DNA of 64,000 nucleotides, taken from positions 1-64,000 of the forward strand of contig JAAYCJ010000289.1 in assembly GCA_012729815.1 (NCBI GenBank). The letters run 5' to 3'. This DNA is from Phycisphaerae bacterium. GTDB taxonomy: Bacteria > Planctomycetota > Phycisphaerae > JAAYCJ01. Below are positions 55,933 through 62,939 of this stretch, piece by piece; the first letter of the stretch is position 1; each line of letters begins with the position of its first letter. Both the position numbers and the translations under genes were made by a program. Under the pieces are notes generated by a model. It saw nothing but the letters and a program-made list of their open reading frames with translations, did not search any database and was not told the origin of the DNA.

Positions 55933-56589
55933 ATGGACGCCACGACAGCGGAAAAGCTGCGAGTGGCCTTGGACGCAGATGACGACTCGATTGAGCGGGC
56001 CTTGGCGGAACTCGACCGCAAGGCCTCGGCATGGTTCGATTCGGTCCGGGCCGCACACCAAGCCCTGTGCGCGTTGGCGGGGCCGCGTGTTTCCAGCGAA
56101 GAGGCCAAAATCCAATCGACGCCGTCGACCCTCTTGGAGGAAGACGCGGCTGCGCTGCCGGCAGAGACGCCGACCCCGGATGCGGTCCGTGAAGAACTGC
56201 AAACCGCCCTCGCGGCACCGGAACTCGACGCCGTCCCAGCCGAGGCGTCAGCCGACGACGCCGCGGCCGGCCGTGAAGATGAGGATCTCCTGGCCAAACA
56301 CAACATCGTGCGGATCAGCGCCAAAAACAAGGATCGAACACACGCCTCGCCCAAGGCCCACACGACGGCCGAACCGCAGGGCGACGACGGAATCGATGCG
56401 CTGCTGGCGACACTGGAGCCCGAAGTGGCTCAGAAGGTTCGCATCATGCACCGGATGTTCCCGGACAAGGATATCGAAGAGTTGATCGAGAGATTTCGGA
56501 CAGAAGCGGCCGGAGAACGCAACAGACCGGCCGAGAAGGAAGCGGACAAGGGGAAGGGTTGGTCCTGGTGGAGGAGAGACAAACGATGA
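55933..56589 (+). CDS. acidic protein of unknown function, first gene of the GTPase cluster
   Basis: The 218-residue protein is acidic and low in structure through the middle (about 60-150). It has a helical N terminus with ALAELDRKASAWFDSVRAAHQALCAL, a conserved-looking helix-turn-helix-like segment EPEVAQKVRIMHRMFPDKDIEELIERF (about 162-188) and a basic end (GKGWSWWRRDKR). The Met-Phe-Pro (175-177) with the following helix recalls a CUE domain, but only half of one is present, so I do not claim it. GGAGG lies six bases before the ATG. The stop overlaps the next gene by ATGA. Confidence 0.55.
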   Translation: MDATTAEKLRVALDADDDSIERALAELDRKASAWFDSVRAAHQALCALAGPRVSSEEAKIQSTPSTLLEEDAAALPAETPTPDAVREELQTALAAPELDAVPAEASADDAAAGREDEDLLAKHNIVRISAKNKDRTHASPKAHTTAEPQGDDGIDALLATLEPEVAQKVRIMHRMFPDKDIEELIERFRTEAAGERNRPAEKEADKGKGWSWWRRDKR

Positions 56590-57650
56590 CGCAGGTGAAA
56601 GCGGGAAACGCAGCCGAACTGGCGCAACAGGCCCTGGACCTGGGGCATATTCAGGAGTTGGGCAACGATGTCGTGGAGGCGGTTCAACTGCTGCGCGAAT
56701 TGCTCGAGGCGAGGGCCGAGGCGCTCGAGGCCTGCCGGTCCACCCTCGAAGAGCAGTACCATCAATTCGAGGAAGAACGCAGCCAGTTGGCCCAGCAGGA
56801 GTCGGAGCTCTGCGAACAGTTGGAACGCCGCGAAAAGGACCTCGTTGAACGCGAGCAGACCTGCGAGGAAACGCACGAGCAGGCGCAAAAGGTCATGCAG
56901 GAGCATGAGCAGCGGTCGCGCGAGCTGGCCCAGAAACAGGAGCAGGTCGAGGCCAGGCTCAAGGAGGTGGAAAAGGCACGACAGGAACTCACCGTCCTCG
57001 AGCAGGCCCTCGCCGAAAACGAGAAGAAACTCTCGCAGAAGTCCCACGAGATTGACCAGTGGTCCGCCGCCCTGGAGGAAGAGGGCAAGAAAATCGAGGC
57101 TCAGAAGCAGCAACTGGCCAAGGCCGCTTCGCAACTCAAGCAGGAACGCTCCGACTGGGAGAACCAGCGTGGCGATATCTCCGAGGCCGAAGGCAAGCTG
57201 GAAAGCCAGCGGGAAGAACTCCGCCGAATGCAGGAGCAGATCCAGTCCGCCCGATCCGAATTCGAACAGGAGCGGACCGCCTTCCAAGCCCGGCAGAAGG
57301 AACTCGCCGCCCTGGCCGAGAGCCTCGAGCAGCAGAAGGAGGAACTCGCCGTGCGGCAGACCCAGGTCGAGGCCCTCCAGACCGAGTGGGACGCCAAAAT
57401 GCAGGAGCTGATGGCCGCCAACGAGAGCCTCTCGGCCCTCCGTGCCCAGCTCGATCGCGAGTTGCAGAACGTGGTCGAACGCAAGGATGACCTGCTTCCC
57501 AAGTTCGGCGTGACCGAAGAGGAAGTCAAGCAAGGCGCCCCCGCAAAGGCCGGGCTGCCTGCGGCGAAAAATCCCCAGGCCCGCGAGGCCATCGAACGGT
57601 TCCAGAAGCTCTGCCGGGATGCCCGACGGCGGGCGATCGGCGAAGGCTGA
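56586..57650 (+). CDS. long coiled-coil protein of the GTPase cluster
   Basis: The 354-residue protein starts at 56586 in an ATGA overlap; an in-frame ATG nine codons earlier is less likely. After about 40 residues it forms an almost unbroken coiled coil to about residue 310, rich in Glu, Gln and Lys (e.g. EQYHQFEEERSQLAQQ, KKLSQKSHEIDQW). The tail is a short globular end with FGVTEEEVKQGAPAKAGLPAAKNPQAREAIERFQKL. It may act as a scaffold or spacer that brings the GTPase and SUMF1-type proteins together. No enzyme motif is seen. Confidence 0.7.
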   Translation: MTQVKAGNAAELAQQALDLGHIQELGNDVVEAVQLLRELLEARAEALEACRSTLEEQYHQFEEERSQLAQQESELCEQLERREKDLVEREQTCEETHEQAQKVMQEHEQRSRELAQKQEQVEARLKEVEKARQELTVLEQALAENEKKLSQKSHEIDQWSAALEEEGKKIEAQKQQLAKAASQLKQERSDWENQRGDISEAEGKLESQREELRRMQEQIQSARSEFEQERTAFQARQKELAALAESLEQQKEELAVRQTQVEALQTEWDAKMQELMAANESLSALRAQLDRELQNVVERKDDLLPKFGVTEEEVKQGAPAKAGLPAAKNPQAREAIERFQKLCRDARRRAIGEG

Positions 57651-57696
57651 TGGCGGCGACGGTTGACGACTATTCCCTGGTGCAAGGAACACAAGC

Positions 57697-58728
57697 ATGG
57701 TGTTGAAGATGTTCACGCGAAAGCAGACCCCCGCCCAACCGAGGCTCGCGGTGCAGCGGCGAATGACCGGCCGACACAAGGACTACGTGCCGGCCGAACC
57801 GCGAACATTGGACCAGGATCCGCTCAAACGGGTTCTCCAACAGGGACGCTGCGGCCTGCTCGTCCGCGGCGACGAACAGTGGCGGAACCATCCGCAGTTC
57901 GCCTCGGGCTCGAAAACCGCCCTGCGCAAAATCGACGAGACGTTCGCCCTGGTTCCGGAGGGTTTCGTCTCGCTCCCCCAGACGGTCACCGACGCCCCGG
58001 GCTCCCCCGAGATGGACTTCGAAACGGACCCGTTCCTGATGGCCCGCTGCGCGACGACCAACGCCGAATTTCAGTTGTTCGTCGACGACAACGCCTACGA
58101 AAACCTCGAACTGTGGCCCAAAGACATCTGGCCCCACCTGATCGACTTCAAGGATCTGACCGGCCTGCCCGGACCTCGCTACTGGGAACATGGACGGCAC
58201 GACCGACGCCTGGCGGACCATCCCGTGGTGGGCATCTGCTACTACGAGGCGGCGGCGTACGCGGCATGGGCCGGCTACCGCCTGCCGACCGAGGCGGAGT
58301 GGCAGATGGCCGCGAGCTGGCGAATCCGCAGTTCGGCCTATGTGCTGCGACGCTATCCCTGGGGCGATGCGATGGACGCCTCCCGATGCAACATCTGGAT
58401 GTCGGGCGTCGGCACGACGGTCCCGGTTCACGAGTATGAAAACGGAGCCGCTCCCAACGGCGTGCTGCACCTCTGCGGCAACGTCTGGGAGTGGACCGAC
58501 AGCGATTACTGCGTCTACGACGAGGAAGGACGCCCGGTGGTGGGCGACATGCTGATGAAGTCGATCCGCGGCGGATCCTTCGACACCTACTTCGCCTGCC
58601 AGGCCACCAGCTTCTTCCGAACGGGACTGGCGTGCCTGATGCGGACGCACAACGTCGGAATCCGCTGCGCGCTCGATTGTTCGGCGGTCGACGATCAAAA
58701 CGGCGGCGAGCAAGGGAGTGAGCAATGA
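57697..58728 (+). CDS. SUMF1/formylglycine-generating-enzyme-like domain protein
   Basis: The 343-residue protein starts after AAGGAACACAAGC. Residues 85-330 show the FGE-sulfatase fold: GFVSLPQTV near the start, the HPVVGICYYEAAAYAAWAGYRLPTEAEWQMAA block, and HLCGNVWEWTDSDYCVYD. GGSFDTYFACQATSFFRTGLACLMRTHNVGIRC ends it. Two cysteines lie in that last part, in a different arrangement from the copper-binding pair of true FGE, so activity is unclear. In conflict and surface systems such domains often act as binding modules or diversifying domains. The gene overlaps the GTPase gene by four bases. Confidence 0.82.
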   Translation: MVLKMFTRKQTPAQPRLAVQRRMTGRHKDYVPAEPRTLDQDPLKRVLQQGRCGLLVRGDEQWRNHPQFASGSKTALRKIDETFALVPEGFVSLPQTVTDAPGSPEMDFETDPFLMARCATTNAEFQLFVDDNAYENLELWPKDIWPHLIDFKDLTGLPGPRYWEHGRHDRRLADHPVVGICYYEAAAYAAWAGYRLPTEAEWQMAASWRIRSSAYVLRRYPWGDAMDASRCNIWMSGVGTTVPVHEYENGAAPNGVLHLCGNVWEWTDSDYCVYDEEGRPVVGDMLMKSIRGGSFDTYFACQATSFFRTGLACLMRTHNVGIRCALDCSAVDDQNGGEQGSEQ

Positions 58729-59795
58729 CAACCATCAACACCAGTTCCTCGGTCAATACGATCTGCATGATCTGCGACACACCGAACTCCAAGTCGGCCA
58801 TGCTGTGCCGCGAGTGTTCCGCCCCCCTGAGCCTGGTCCGCGAGGCGATCTCCCAGGAACGCGAGCCCCAGGTCGTCAGCGTGGTCGGCGAAAGCAACGT
58901 CGGCAAAACCGTGTACCTGGGCTTCCTGCTCGATATGCTCTCGCAGCAGGCCAACGACTTCGAGGCGATCCCAAAGGGAGCGTACTCGATCGACGTGCAG
59001 CAAACGGTCATCAGCCACATGGCCCACCGGATGTTCCCGCCCAAGACGGCCATGGAACCCGACCAGTGGTACTGGGCCTACTACCAGGTCCGCAAGCGGG
59101 CCATCGCGAACAAGTGGATTGACCTGGTGATGCCCGACATGGCCGGCGAATCGCTGGCCGCGGAGATGGCCAGCCCAAAAACCTTCCGCGTGATCAGCAA
59201 CCTCGTCAGCAAGTCCTCCGGCGCCGTCCTCCTGGTGGACGCGGGCCTCGCCGCCAACGGTTCCTCCAGGCCCGACTTCTTCGCCCTCAAGATGATGAGC
59301 TACATCGACTCGATGAACGGACTGCGGCACGACCAGAAAATCAAGACCCCGATCGCCATCGTGCTCGCCAAGTCCGACTACTGCCCCGAATGCTTTGACA
59401 ACCCGCGAGAATTCGTCCGGGCCAATCTCAACCGCCTCTGGAACATGTGCATCAGCCGGTTCGAAAACGTCGAGTATTTCGCGTGCAGCGTGGTCGGTTC
59501 GCTCGGCTACGCGACGCCCGCCGTCTCGCGTCCCAAACCGCAACCCGCCGCCTCCATCCTGAAAAAAGCAACCCAGGAAGACGCAGAACAGGACGAAGGA
59601 GTCTTGTCGGAATGGGAACGCCGATTCGCCGTCAACGGCGCCTCCAAGTCCAGCCGTTCGGAAATGGTCGAGGCGGAGCCCCGGCCGCACCCCGAGTGGG
59701 ACCAGGGCGGCCAGGACCTGGTGGTCCCCGTGCCGCTGCACACCGCCCTCCAGGGCGTCCTCGAGCCGTTCGAGTGGATCCTCGAACAGATCTAG
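58725..59795 (+). CDS. zinc-ribbon double-GTPase (DO-GTPase) like protein
   Basis: The 356-residue protein has an N-terminal treble-clef/zinc-ribbon (C14, C17, C28, C31) and a P-loop GTPase domain. Walker A is GESNVGKT (55-62), Walker B/switch II is PDMAGE (137-142), and the base-specific motif is AKSD (215-218) in place of NKxD. This matches the double-GTPase family named in surveys of bacterial conflict systems (Pfam DO-GTPase2). Its middle (QWYWAYYQVRKRAIANKWIDL) carries the family's spacer helices. It starts in an ATGA overlap after GGGAG. The next gene codes for a GAP1-type protein, the known partner of these GTPases. Confidence 0.85.
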   Translation: MTTINTSSSVNTICMICDTPNSKSAMLCRECSAPLSLVREAISQEREPQVVSVVGESNVGKTVYLGFLLDMLSQQANDFEAIPKGAYSIDVQQTVISHMAHRMFPPKTAMEPDQWYWAYYQVRKRAIANKWIDLVMPDMAGESLAAEMASPKTFRVISNLVSKSSGAVLLVDAGLAANGSSRPDFFALKMMSYIDSMNGLRHDQKIKTPIAIVLAKSDYCPECFDNPREFVRANLNRLWNMCISRFENVEYFACSVVGSLGYATPAVSRPKPQPAASILKKATQEDAEQDEGVLSEWERRFAVNGASKSSRSEMVEAEPRPHPEWDQGGQDLVVPVPLHTALQGVLEPFEWILEQI

Positions 59796-59831
59796 CCCCG
59801 GACCGGGTCGGAAACGGAAGGGAATGACCGT

Positions 59832-60830
59832 ATGGCCGTAAAGTGCGAGCAGGCAATCTTCACCTCCATTCGGACCCTCACCGGCGAAGGCTACCGGATC
59901 ATCGCGGCCAGCCCGGGCCTGAATCCGGATGAGCGCACGGAGATCACCCGTCGCAGCCCCTCGCACAACAGCCTCTGCTCACCGTCCTCCCATGCGGTCG
60001 GAATCCTCAACTGCCGGTTGGACAGCGGGCGATACTGCATCGGCTATTCCCGCTGCGCGGGTGCCGAGCAAACCGCGCGAGGAGGAGCAAGGGTCTATAC
60101 CAACCTCGCGGTCCTCTGCGAAGACGGCTTTCGACGCTTTGAGGGCAATCCCGTGCGAGCCGCAGCCGTCCTGGCCAGAGAGGCCGGCAAGTCGATCATG
60201 CTCAAACCCCAACCGCGGCTCGACCCGCTGGAACTCGACCCCGACGCCATCCCGCACATGGACCTGGAACACGACCCGACCCCCTGTTTCGGCACCTCCG
60301 ACGATGCCTACTGGCTCACCAAGGTTCTTCGGCCCCTCCTGTACGGACGCTCCGTCCTCATTGTCGGCGCCTCTGCCCCCTTTGAGATGCTCGAATGGAC
60401 GCTCAAAGCACTCCCCCTGCCCATCCGCATCGGCATCTCCGTCAGCGTGGGGCTTCGCTGGGCGTCAACCCGTGATATCCGCCTCTGCTTCGTCGATCAT
60501 GCGGGAATTGAGACGAGGCGGGCCATTTCCGGCCAGGGCGTCGAATGGCTTGAGGTCAAGTCAAGGCCGGATGACCGGCAACCAGAGCCCCAGACGGACT
60601 ATTGCGCCATGATCGGCCGCTGGTGGCGGGATCGCCGCTTCCGCGATATTGTTACGCTGACCGGACTGATCGAAGAACCCGCAAGCCCCAACGATCTGGA
60701 CCACCTTGCCCCGCTTTGCGATCGGCAAAAACAACTCGTCGCCGCCGGTCACGTCGACCGCGACCAGCTTGATGCCGATACGTTGGCATGGCTCAATCGA
60801 ACTGTCGCCGCCTTCTCCAGGCGAACGTAA
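59832..60830 (+). CDS. GTPase-associated protein 1 (GAP1-N2) like protein
   Basis: The 332-residue protein starts KCEQAIFTSIRTLTGEGYRIIAASPGLNPDERTEI, with SHNSLCS and GGARVYTNLAVLCEDGFRRFEGNPVRAA following. These match the N-terminal domain of GTPase-associated protein 1 (Pfam GAP1-N2), to my knowledge found almost only beside double-GTPases. A middle part with YGRSVLIVGASAPFEMLEW and a helical C terminus (DHLAPLCDRQKQLVAAGHVDRDQLDA) follow. The GTPase gene ends 36 bases before. I infer that the two form a complex. The family is common in bacteria with complex life styles; its biochemical role is not known to me. Confidence 0.82.
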   Translation: MAVKCEQAIFTSIRTLTGEGYRIIAASPGLNPDERTEITRRSPSHNSLCSPSSHAVGILNCRLDSGRYCIGYSRCAGAEQTARGGARVYTNLAVLCEDGFRRFEGNPVRAAAVLAREAGKSIMLKPQPRLDPLELDPDAIPHMDLEHDPTPCFGTSDDAYWLTKVLRPLLYGRSVLIVGASAPFEMLEWTLKALPLPIRIGISVSVGLRWASTRDIRLCFVDHAGIETRRAISGQGVEWLEVKSRPDDRQPEPQTDYCAMIGRWWRDRRFRDIVTLTGLIEEPASPNDLDHLAPLCDRQKQLVAAGHVDRDQLDADTLAWLNRTVAAFSRRT

Positions 60831-60979: not shown

Positions 60980-61450
60980 ATGGTTGACATCGCCAACTTG
61001 GGAATTTCTAAGCGGGGGTGCATAGTGCATACATTGACACAAATTATTGCTTATGTTGCATTGGCATTAGTTATGACAAGTACAAGCAGCGGAGACCTGT
61101 TTCCCTCGGCTGCACCCAACTCGGAGCTGAGTCTCGATGCTCCCAGTCGGATGGCGGATCAGCCGATGCAGGGCGACGCCGATCTGGACGGCGACGTTGA
61201 TTTGGGCGACTTTGATATCTTTGAGGCCAACTTCGCCACACCGTCCGGAGCGACGTGGGAACAGGGAGACTTCGACCAGGACGACGACGTGGACCTTGAC
61301 GATTTCGCCTTGTTACAGAACAGCTTCGGCTACACGCAGCCGACCAACGGCGAGAACACGCCCCCGGTCCAGGTGCCCGCTCCGGCTGCGATCCTGCTGG
61401 GCGCGATCGGCCTGGCTCTGGCCGGATGGGTCCGACAACGTCTGGCCTGA
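60980..61450 (+). CDS. secreted PEP-CTERM-type protein with dockerin-like EF-hand pair
   Basis: The 156-residue protein (if started at 60980) has a signal peptide (LTQIIAYVALALVMTSTSSG) and a charged linker. Two EF-hand-like loops of a dockerin follow: GDADLDGDVDLGDFDIFEANF and GDFDQDDDVDLDDFALLQNSFG (about 65-120). The C-terminal tail is VPAPAAILLGAIGLALAGWVRQRLA, a PEP-CTERM variant with Ala-Pro-Ala. A GTG at 61025 (15 codons later) could be the true start because the promoter is very close to the ATG. The dockerin would bind a cohesin on another protein, or simply calcium. The sorting tail anchors it to the surface. Confidence 0.8.
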   Translation: MVDIANLGISKRGCIVHTLTQIIAYVALALVMTSTSSGDLFPSAAPNSELSLDAPSRMADQPMQGDADLDGDVDLGDFDIFEANFATPSGATWEQGDFDQDDDVDLDDFALLQNSFGYTQPTNGENTPPVQVPAPAAILLGAIGLALAGWVRQRLA

Positions 61451-61634
61451 CGGCCCTCGCGCTATCCGCCTGGATGCCGGAACCGTCGTCAACGTCGTTC
61501 GCGAACGCCGCAAACAGACGATGCGGTCTCTCCCTGCGCCGCGACGCAGTACCACACCAACAGCCGTGACGCTCCGCCCGAAGCTCCACCACGTCGTTTC
61601 CCCGTTGCTTCCAAACCCGCGAAACGGTTTTTTG

Positions 61635-61662
61635 TTGAACTTCGTGAGATTCTCTGAATAAT
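61635..61662 (+). promoter_or_regulatory. promoter of the polysaccharide export gene
   Basis: TTGAAC (61635-61640), 16 bases, AATAAT (61657-61662), 81 bases before the start. Confidence 0.55.
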
Positions 61663-61742
61663 GCTCCAATAGGCGGGTCATCAGAGGCCCGGGCCGTTGG
61701 GGACGGCGTGGTCCAACCGCGGTGATAACGGAGGCACGAGCT

Positions 61743-62939
61743 ATGTCGTGGGTGACCAAGGGCAGAGTCATGGGTTTCGGGCGTTTCTCAATACTGGCGG
61801 GAGTCGCGGTTTTCGCCTTCACTTGCATCGGCTGCGCCGGCGACGGCCGAATCAGCGTCTATGAGTACCTCCAGATACGGCAGACCGAACCAGCCGCACC
61901 AACCACCCAGCCCGTGGACACCTCCGCGCTGACTAAGATGGTCAACCATGAACTTGGCCCCTACCGCGCCGGGACCGGCGACGTGCTCCAGATCATGCTC
62001 TCCGGTCCGGATCAGACGGTGATCTATCAGCCGGTGCCGGTGCGGGTCGACCAGGAGGGTACCGTCGAGTTGCCCATCGTCGGCAAAATCAAGGTGGCCG
62101 GCCTGAGCCTTGAGGCGGTCGAGGACGCGATCCAGCAGGCCTACGTCCCGGACGTCTACCGCCAGGCCGTCGTGCACGTGAGCCTCTTTGAGCCCTATGC
62201 GACCAACGTCCTGGTCACCGGCGCGGTCGTAACTCCCGGACTGATCCCGCTGCGCCGAACGGAACGAAATCTGATGTACGCCCTCGCCGCGGCCGGCGGA
62301 CTCTCGCAGCTCTCTTCCGGCAAGGCCACGCTCAAGCGCCTTCGCCACCCCGAGCAGAGCGTCACCCTCGACCTGACCGACCCGGAGCAGCTCGCCGGCG
62401 CCCTGACCATCGATCCGCTGGAGCCGGGCGACCTGATCTACGTGCACTCAGCCGTCCCGAATACCGTATTCGTCGGCGGCTTGGTCAACGCGCCCCGGGC
62501 CCAGACCTATCCGCCGGGAACGGACGTGACCGTGCTCCAGGCCATCGCCGCCTCCGCCGGCCTGCGAGAAGACCTGGTGCCCAGCGAGGCCACCCTGATC
62601 CATCGCACGCCCGACGGCCGCGACATCCGCGTCAAGCTCAACCTCAACAAGATATCGAAGGGCGAGGAACCCAACGTCGTGCTCGCCGCCGGCGATATTC
62701 TCTGGGTGCCGCACACCCTCGGCACGCGGGTCGTCGAATTCATCAACCGCAACTTCTTCTTCCGCGCCGGCTTCAGCGCCACCTATAACATCATCGGCGG
62801 CGAGGACTACCTCGAAGACGATTTCAACGTCGGTCGGCGCGACCTCTCATCGCTCTACGACCCGTTCGGCGAGCTGTTGCGCAACGCCGCCCTCCAGGGC
62901 CTCACTCCGGCGCCGCCTGTCGTGCCCGTCGCCAAGTAG
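61743..62939 (+). CDS. polysaccharide export outer-membrane lipoprotein (Wza/GfcE-like)
   Basis: The start at 61743 has GGAGG eight bases upstream; longer in-frame ATG is less likely. The 398-residue protein has a lipoprotein signal (FTCIGC, C31) and a Poly_export domain (YRAGTGDVLQIMLSGPDQ... VDQEGTVELPIVGKIKVAGLSLEAVEDAI). SLBB-type segments follow, with VLVTGAVVTPGLIPL, YVHSAVPNTVFVGGLVNAPRAQTYPPGTDVTVLQAIAASAGL and the final DILWVPHTLGTRVV. This is the outer-membrane pore type of Wza. It lies downstream of a PEP-CTERM gene, as often seen in planctomycetes. Confidence 0.9.
   Translation: MSWVTKGRVMGFGRFSILAGVAVFAFTCIGCAGDGRISVYEYLQIRQTEPAAPTTQPVDTSALTKMVNHELGPYRAGTGDVLQIMLSGPDQTVIYQPVPVRVDQEGTVELPIVGKIKVAGLSLEAVEDAIQQAYVPDVYRQAVVHVSLFEPYATNVLVTGAVVTPGLIPLRRTERNLMYALAAAGGLSQLSSGKATLKRLRHPEQSVTLDLTDPEQLAGALTIDPLEPGDLIYVHSAVPNTVFVGGLVNAPRAQTYPPGTDVTVLQAIAASAGLREDLVPSEATLIHRTPDGRDIRVKLNLNKISKGEEPNVVLAAGDILWVPHTLGTRVVEFINRNFFFRAGFSATYNIIGGEDYLEDDFNVGRRDLSSLYDPFGELLRNAALQGLTPAPPVVPVAK

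Follow-up and report, generated by a model that had tools for sequence, protein, structure and literature searches.

The window (the 64,000-nucleotide stretch of DNA analysed here) comes from a 5.47 Mb planctomycete assembly (G000) whose kin are Phycisphaerae MAGs. Near one end it carries five genes on the forward strand, in the order U1, CC2, FGE/SUMF1-fold, zinc-ribbon DO-GTPase and GAP1-N2. U1 (55933..56589) encodes an acidic, helical protein of 218 amino acids. It is followed by CC2 (56586..57650), a coiled coil of about 354 amino acids (first in-frame start, TTG at 56559). The third gene (57697..58728) encodes an FGE/SUMF1-type protein (C-type-lectin fold) that is predicted to be catalytically inactive. 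The last two encode the DO-GTPase (58725..59795), which combines a zinc ribbon with a TRAFAC GTPase, and GAP1 (59832..60830), in which a GAP1-N2 domain is joined to a DENN-like second half. The layout given in a preliminary description of this DNA (five genes, one strand, ATGA overlaps at 56586 and 58725) is confirmed, the overlaps being read directly from the sequence. The palindrome it placed before the first gene is present (CGCGAA-A-TTCGCG, 6-bp arms) but uninformative. Ten repeats of this kind, itself included, lie within 440 bp, and it is not distinctive enough for an operator. Terminator-like sites showed no excess over shuffled sequence.

The five genes form one unit. The GTPase was found in 48 of the 298 genomes of the class (16%), once in each. 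The matching FGE subfamily is present in 47 of those 48 genomes and in no others; in the remaining genome (G054) the contig ends within the locus. Across the 41 loci compared (40 retrieved neighbourhoods plus the window), CC2, FGE, GTPase and GAP1 follow one another in this order wherever the contig allows, and a scan of named genomes yielded about 72 Phycisphaerae loci or contigs with an identical layout. The same succession of four genes recurs in Pirellulales, as a four-gene form. A conserved neighbourhood, which the preliminary description had called for, thus exists at two levels: a fixed five-gene set, with a core of invariant order, in Phycisphaerae and a four-gene core in Pirellulales. 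Conservation across classes also disposes of chance open reading frames. The operon boundaries are sharp, since the flanking genes differ between genera and are common only to close relatives. In the window, SurE lies upstream, and a dockerin/PEP-CTERM-like protein and a Wza-type polysaccharide export protein lie downstream (60980-62939); these neighbours are absent from the other loci, save for a possible match to the SurE region in one (L033).

Neither of the first two proteins matched a Pfam family above cut-off. U1, present once in the window’s genome, has homologues immediately upstream of the four-gene core in 20 of the 41 loci, with giant divergent versions in 15 more. Across 20 aligned homologues, two parts are kept. 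These are an N-terminal helix (residues 12-50, 55966..56082, forward strand), with the pattern DDxxIxxALxELDxKLxAW, and a C-terminal domain (residues 151-195, 56383..56517, forward strand), with the pattern LLAxLDPExAxxIRVxRRLxxxKSxxELL and then an SWWRR tail. The middle between these ends is acidic and variable in length. An aromatic/basic tail (W-W/basic in the window’s U1) closes 32 of 35 U1 copies. In most of one family (f14), the upstream gene is a divergently oriented coiled-coil giant of 860-1,630 aa, the end of which matches the U1 C-terminal domain in profile searches (E 2e-8 to 0.03, the weakest matches being marginal). We read it as a giant U1; an unrelated neighbour or an SMC protein was dismissed, as the giant ends in the U1 domain and has no Pfam domain. 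A CUE-like domain in U1, suggested by an MFP motif, was likewise rejected because relatives do not keep the motif.

CC2, already described as a long coiled coil, is a true one by the periodicity of its hydrophobicity. The spectrum peaks at 3.5 residues (17.7, compared with 0.02 at 3.6), and the near-perfect heptad pattern extends over proteins of 237-510 aa at different loci. Both ends, an N-terminal helix and a C-terminal tail, are conserved. Used as a profile, the tail signature ERFQKLCRDARRRAIGEG (57594..57647, forward strand) finds 66 of the 72 Phycisphaerae loci; of the six that it misses, five are contig ends. In 12 Pirellulales loci, a protein of about 300 aa with the tail SVMAQFxxLQRDxxRRR precedes FGE, GTPase and GAP1. 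Set side by side, SVMAQFAKLQRDxxRRR from Pirellulales and SMERFQKLCRDAKRR from CC2 are clearly related, and the four-gene core therefore spans two classes. Matches of CC2 to SMC, JetC or ZorA models (PADLOC/NCBIfam) were dismissed as generic coiled-coil similarity far under the cut-offs. Frames of 510 and 1,322 aa in two loci (L037, L112) indicate that CC2 may expand in length too, or that a start codon is misassigned. The preliminary description suggested that U1 and CC2 may be the parts specific to an individual system. By their alignments they are instead conserved, at least within Phycisphaerae, with ends that stay constant and a middle that can lengthen.

The third protein bears out its earlier SUMF1-type assignment with a strong match to the FGE-sulfatase family (PF03781, E 8e-34), and its closest relative in the PDB is EgtB. 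These matches, together with a mean identity of 53% that places it among the operon’s most conserved parts, would fit a working enzyme. That is, the protein could be a formylglycine-generating or EgtB-like oxidase, with the GTPase and GAP1 regulating its delivery or cofactor loading. Its residues speak against this. We examined the segment in which we take the active-site Cys pair of true FGEs to lie, and the pair is absent in nearly all relatives, with two Cys in only 4 of 71 segments. In addition, domain searches found no N-terminal DinB-type domain, the bearer of EgtB’s iron ligands. With neither the Cys pair nor an iron domain of the EgtB type, a binding role is likely, and we regard the enzymatic explanation as very improbable. 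In Pirellulales, the protein starts with hydrophobic helices at its N-terminus.

The GTPase and the last gene belong to the two families named in the preliminary description. For the GTPase, both DO-GTPase1 (3.9e-11) and DO-GTPase2 (2.4e-9) exceed their curated Pfam cut-offs. The sequence motifs reported for it earlier are genuine and conserved, as is its G1 motif (all on the forward strand). Its single zinc ribbon (C14-x2-C17 ... C28-x2-C31, 58764..58817) has four Cys that are invariant among 40 aligned homologues. The alignment also gives the G1/P-loop GESNVGKT (58887..58910) and the G4 motif AKSD (59367..59378), in which K216 and D218 are invariant. Switch II, PDMAGE (59133..59150), places Glu142 at the position of Ras Gln61, and P[DE]xAGE occurs in 80 of 80 homologues. 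A PDB sequence search returned no significant match; in structural comparison, the model groups with TRAFAC GTPases (Der, EF-Tu, Ras-like, MglA). The window’s protein carries, after the G domain and ahead of the last helix, a 64-residue low-complexity, disordered insertion (59520..59711, forward strand) that is absent from matched relatives. The latter match residues 2-265 and 330-356 contiguously, and the pLDDT is below 50 inside the insertion.

GAP1 matches GAP1-N2 above the cut-off (7.1e-8), and 58 of 58 relatives match this family too. By Pfam, GAP1-M is found in 8 of those 58 but not in the window’s protein, and GAP1-C is found in none. At 332 aa, the window’s copy is shorter at its C-terminus than most relatives (about 355-540 aa). 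A PDB sequence search gave no significant match for this protein either. An AF2 model (pLDDT 90.6, pTM 0.89) compared by Foldseek with 350,542 PDB chains found DENND1A, FLCN/FNIP2, the FLCN GAP complex, DENND1B and DENND10 at the top, followed by TagF. In the model, the elements run b-b-a-b-b-b-a-a, followed by an alpha/beta part and by helices, in agreement with the order longin, DENN, d-DENN in the literature (PMC3521125). In these respects the GAP1 model resembles longin-DENN regulators (DENND1, FLCN-FNIP, C9orf72-SMCR8, Avl9), which share its longin, alpha/beta, helical order and its Arg in the longin beta4-beta5 loop. In GAP1, that loop, located from the model, is E79-x3-R83-G-G (60066..60086, forward strand). 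R83 (codon 60078-60080) lies between beta4 (68-78) and beta5 (86-95) and is the predicted arginine finger. E79 and R83 are invariant in 58 of 58 GAP1 sequences, and 20 of 20 other planctomycete GAP1-N2 domains tested have an Arg at the R83 position (78/78 in total). In Avl9 and related DENN GAPs the catalytic Arg lies in the longin beta4-beta5 loop (PMC12803157), and Arg147 in the SMCR8 longin is a proven finger, visualised in the ARF1 complex (PMC8213707). By its place in the model, R83 is predicted to occupy the DENN-type GAP finger position and, from that position, to be catalytic. Given the fold matches, the order of elements and this invariant Arg, we propose that GAP1 acts on the DO-GTPase as a DENN-like GAP, an activity that we infer.

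There are also clear differences. GAP1 is bacterial, would act on a TRAFAC DO-GTPase and has no detectable sequence similarity to longin-DENN regulators. TM-scores to DENN structures are low (0.2-0.4), and none of the 58 GAP1 members matched Pfam DENN or longin profiles at E up to 10. Because of these low scores and missing profile matches, the likeness may be only partial, or may result from convergence. TagF, a bacterial T6SS regulator, scores higher than the DENN proteins (0.43/0.44 for PDB 9t0n). Its match to the GAP1 model (PDB 9t0n, 6iz8) suggests that TagF may share a longin-DENN-like fold. It resembles GAP1 in having the highest TM-score to the model, and differs in its setting, as there are no T6SS genes here. 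To our knowledge, TagF is not known as a GTPase regulator, and we know of no GTPase partner described for it.

Longin domains are reported to be related to the roadblock GAPs of the MglB type (PMC3521125), which raises the possibility of a polarity or motility switch like MglA-MglB. Here the GTPase and its longin-type GAP would direct some structure to one pole, and the coiled coils would act as spatial markers. Both systems pair a bacterial GTPase with a regulator that has a longin/roadblock-related domain, MglA is among the fold matches of the GTPase, and a fliM-like gene (named by its N-terminal motif only) adjoins the operon in several Pirellulales. However, this proximity is one lineage’s chromosomal context, flanks are not conserved in Phycisphaerae and the operon contains no chemotaxis or pilus genes. 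Moreover, MglB is a single roadblock domain, whereas the operon has a longin-type and DENN-like protein, a zinc-ribbon GTPase, an FGE-fold protein and two coiled-coil partners. We consider this explanation improbable.

A better-known context is that of NTP-dependent conflict systems, as which the combination of DO-GTPase, GAP1-N2 and FGS in planctomycetes has been published (Kaur et al., eLife 2020; PMC7159879), and which the preliminary description proposed here. GAP1 would sense an invader, the GTPase would set the threshold, and the FGE protein (with the coiled coils) would be the effector or decoy, acting on the invader or killing the cell. The operon shares with the published GAP1-N2 systems a DO-GTPase that bears a zinc ribbon and the Walker-B Glu, a downstream GAP1-N2 gene and an FGS/FGE gene, which that paper records for some planctomycete systems. 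The differences lie in the remaining parts. Published systems (PMC7159879) usually have two zinc ribbons in place of the operon’s one. The operon has a fixed CC2 and U1, and it lacks any FNIII protein, tubulin, HSP70, kinase or further variable module. Its GAP1 is short (332 aa in the window), with no extra TM or effector domains, whereas most other sampled planctomycete GAP1 proteins have roughly 730-1,140 aa. The other sampled systems adjoin different large genes, and the operon keeps a constant composition over two classes. One genome (G567) carries both kinds, this operon and a long-GAP1 system. Another (G468, L175) has, in one cluster, a near-identical pair of classical GAP1-N2 genes (854 and 871 aa) with a gene of about 450 aa between them. 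Without the FNIII component and variable effectors typical of the published systems, the operon is, by its gene content, best called a variant on the published GTPase-GAP1 core. The preliminary view that the complete arrangement is new thus holds in part. The core combination was already published, but the U1 and CC2 partners and the fixed five-gene set are not found in that paper (PMC7159879).

A conflict function draws further on the patchy occurrence of the operon (16% of the class sample), its transfer as a unit and the fast evolution of GAP1, CC2 and U1. No clear housekeeping role emerged, an outcome that the preliminary description would have taken as refuting its reading. Several observations weigh against it. 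The operon contains no toxin-like, nuclease, peptidase or pore-forming effector genes, Pfam gave no FNIII hit for the five proteins, and the gene set is identical, with no variable effector modules, in all loci with enough contig. PADLOC returned no system match for the five proteins, and there was no enrichment of defence genes among 89 flanking proteins. A defence island was dismissed on the same searches: across the 89 flanking ORFs and the operon’s own proteins only isolated matches turned up, among them a dGTPase, a SNF2 helicase and a cyclase. There is one copy per genome, and the FGE protein is highly conserved, unlike DGR-diversified FGS. With its composition fixed across two classes, the operon fares poorly as a conflict system, and we think this function unlikely, if less so than polarity control.

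The GTPase (mean identity 61%) and the FGE protein are conserved nearly like RecA (68%), while GAP1 (29%) evolves much faster. Distances correlate with those of RecA (r about 0.35; 0 of 2,000 permutations as high), so the operon is mostly inherited. The GTPase/FGE tree conflicts with RecA for three genomes (G022, G211, G094), which excludes a purely vertical core gene. In particular, G022 belongs to f14 by RecA but has an operon of the f1/f12 type with a short same-strand U1, and the operon is thus sometimes transferred whole. The operon also occurs in records titled Alphaproteobacteria, Candidatus Binatota and Deltaproteobacteria (L081, L083, L105); the title of L081, at least, is wrong, since it is the G022 contig, which the genome set puts in the window’s own class. 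A plasmid search with the GAP1-N domain gave no match.

Taken together, the operon seems closer to a stable switch that organises the cell than to a weapon against viruses. We give an even chance to the proposal that the products of the five genes make up a single GTP-driven switch complex, a fixed piece of physiological machinery in some planctomycetes. It builds on the gene set, its order and co-occurrence, the motifs, the residue loss in the FGE protein and the coiled coil, and on the predicted fold and finger position of GAP1. The DO-GTPase would be an active TRAFAC GTPase, and the longin-type domain of GAP1 would put R83 into its active site and speed up GTP hydrolysis. The FGE-fold protein would be a catalytically dead binding module with a C-type-lectin fold near the membrane, in line with the hydrophobic helices at its N-terminus in Pirellulales. 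CC2 and U1 would serve as coiled-coil scaffolds or tethers. Their conserved ends would bind the complex (U1 also via its Trp/basic tail), with middles of varying length between them. Scaffold assembly at the membrane would then be controlled by the GTP state. Such an operon would occasionally be passed on as a unit and would not be a diversifying anti-phage system. We infer the formation of a complex, its membrane tethering and its biological role from these features. On the other hand, the ends of CC2 and U1 could bind something else, the difference in identity between GAP1 and GTPase also fits an arms race, and TagF, not DENN, scores best by TM.

A more specific proposal, which we hold as tentative and somewhat short of even, is that GAP1 is a true bacterial DENN-type GAP with a longin arginine finger. 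The operon would then be an analogue, possibly a distant relative, of the eukaryotic Rab/Arf-DENN-coiled-coil tether modules, with a membrane-associated GTPase, a DENN GAP and tethers of adjustable length. DENN proteins regulate membrane-traffic GTPases, and a 2012 account describes them as eukaryotic, DENN and d-DENN being known only together in that module (PMC3521125). The paper that defined GAP1 in 2020 nowhere mentions longin or DENN (PMC7159879), and searches of the open literature, which leaves most subscription journals outside its scope, found no subsequent study of GAP1/DO-GTPase or of a DENN protein from bacteria. The structural likeness of the GAP1 model to DENN proteins is the main new result here. 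If the proposal is true, the GAP1 family, so far without a biochemical function, would gain a concrete mechanism. DENN regulation would have an equivalent in bacteria, in a phylum whose internal membranes are unusual, and some of the GAP1-N2 ‘conflict systems’ might be no more than common GTPase switches.
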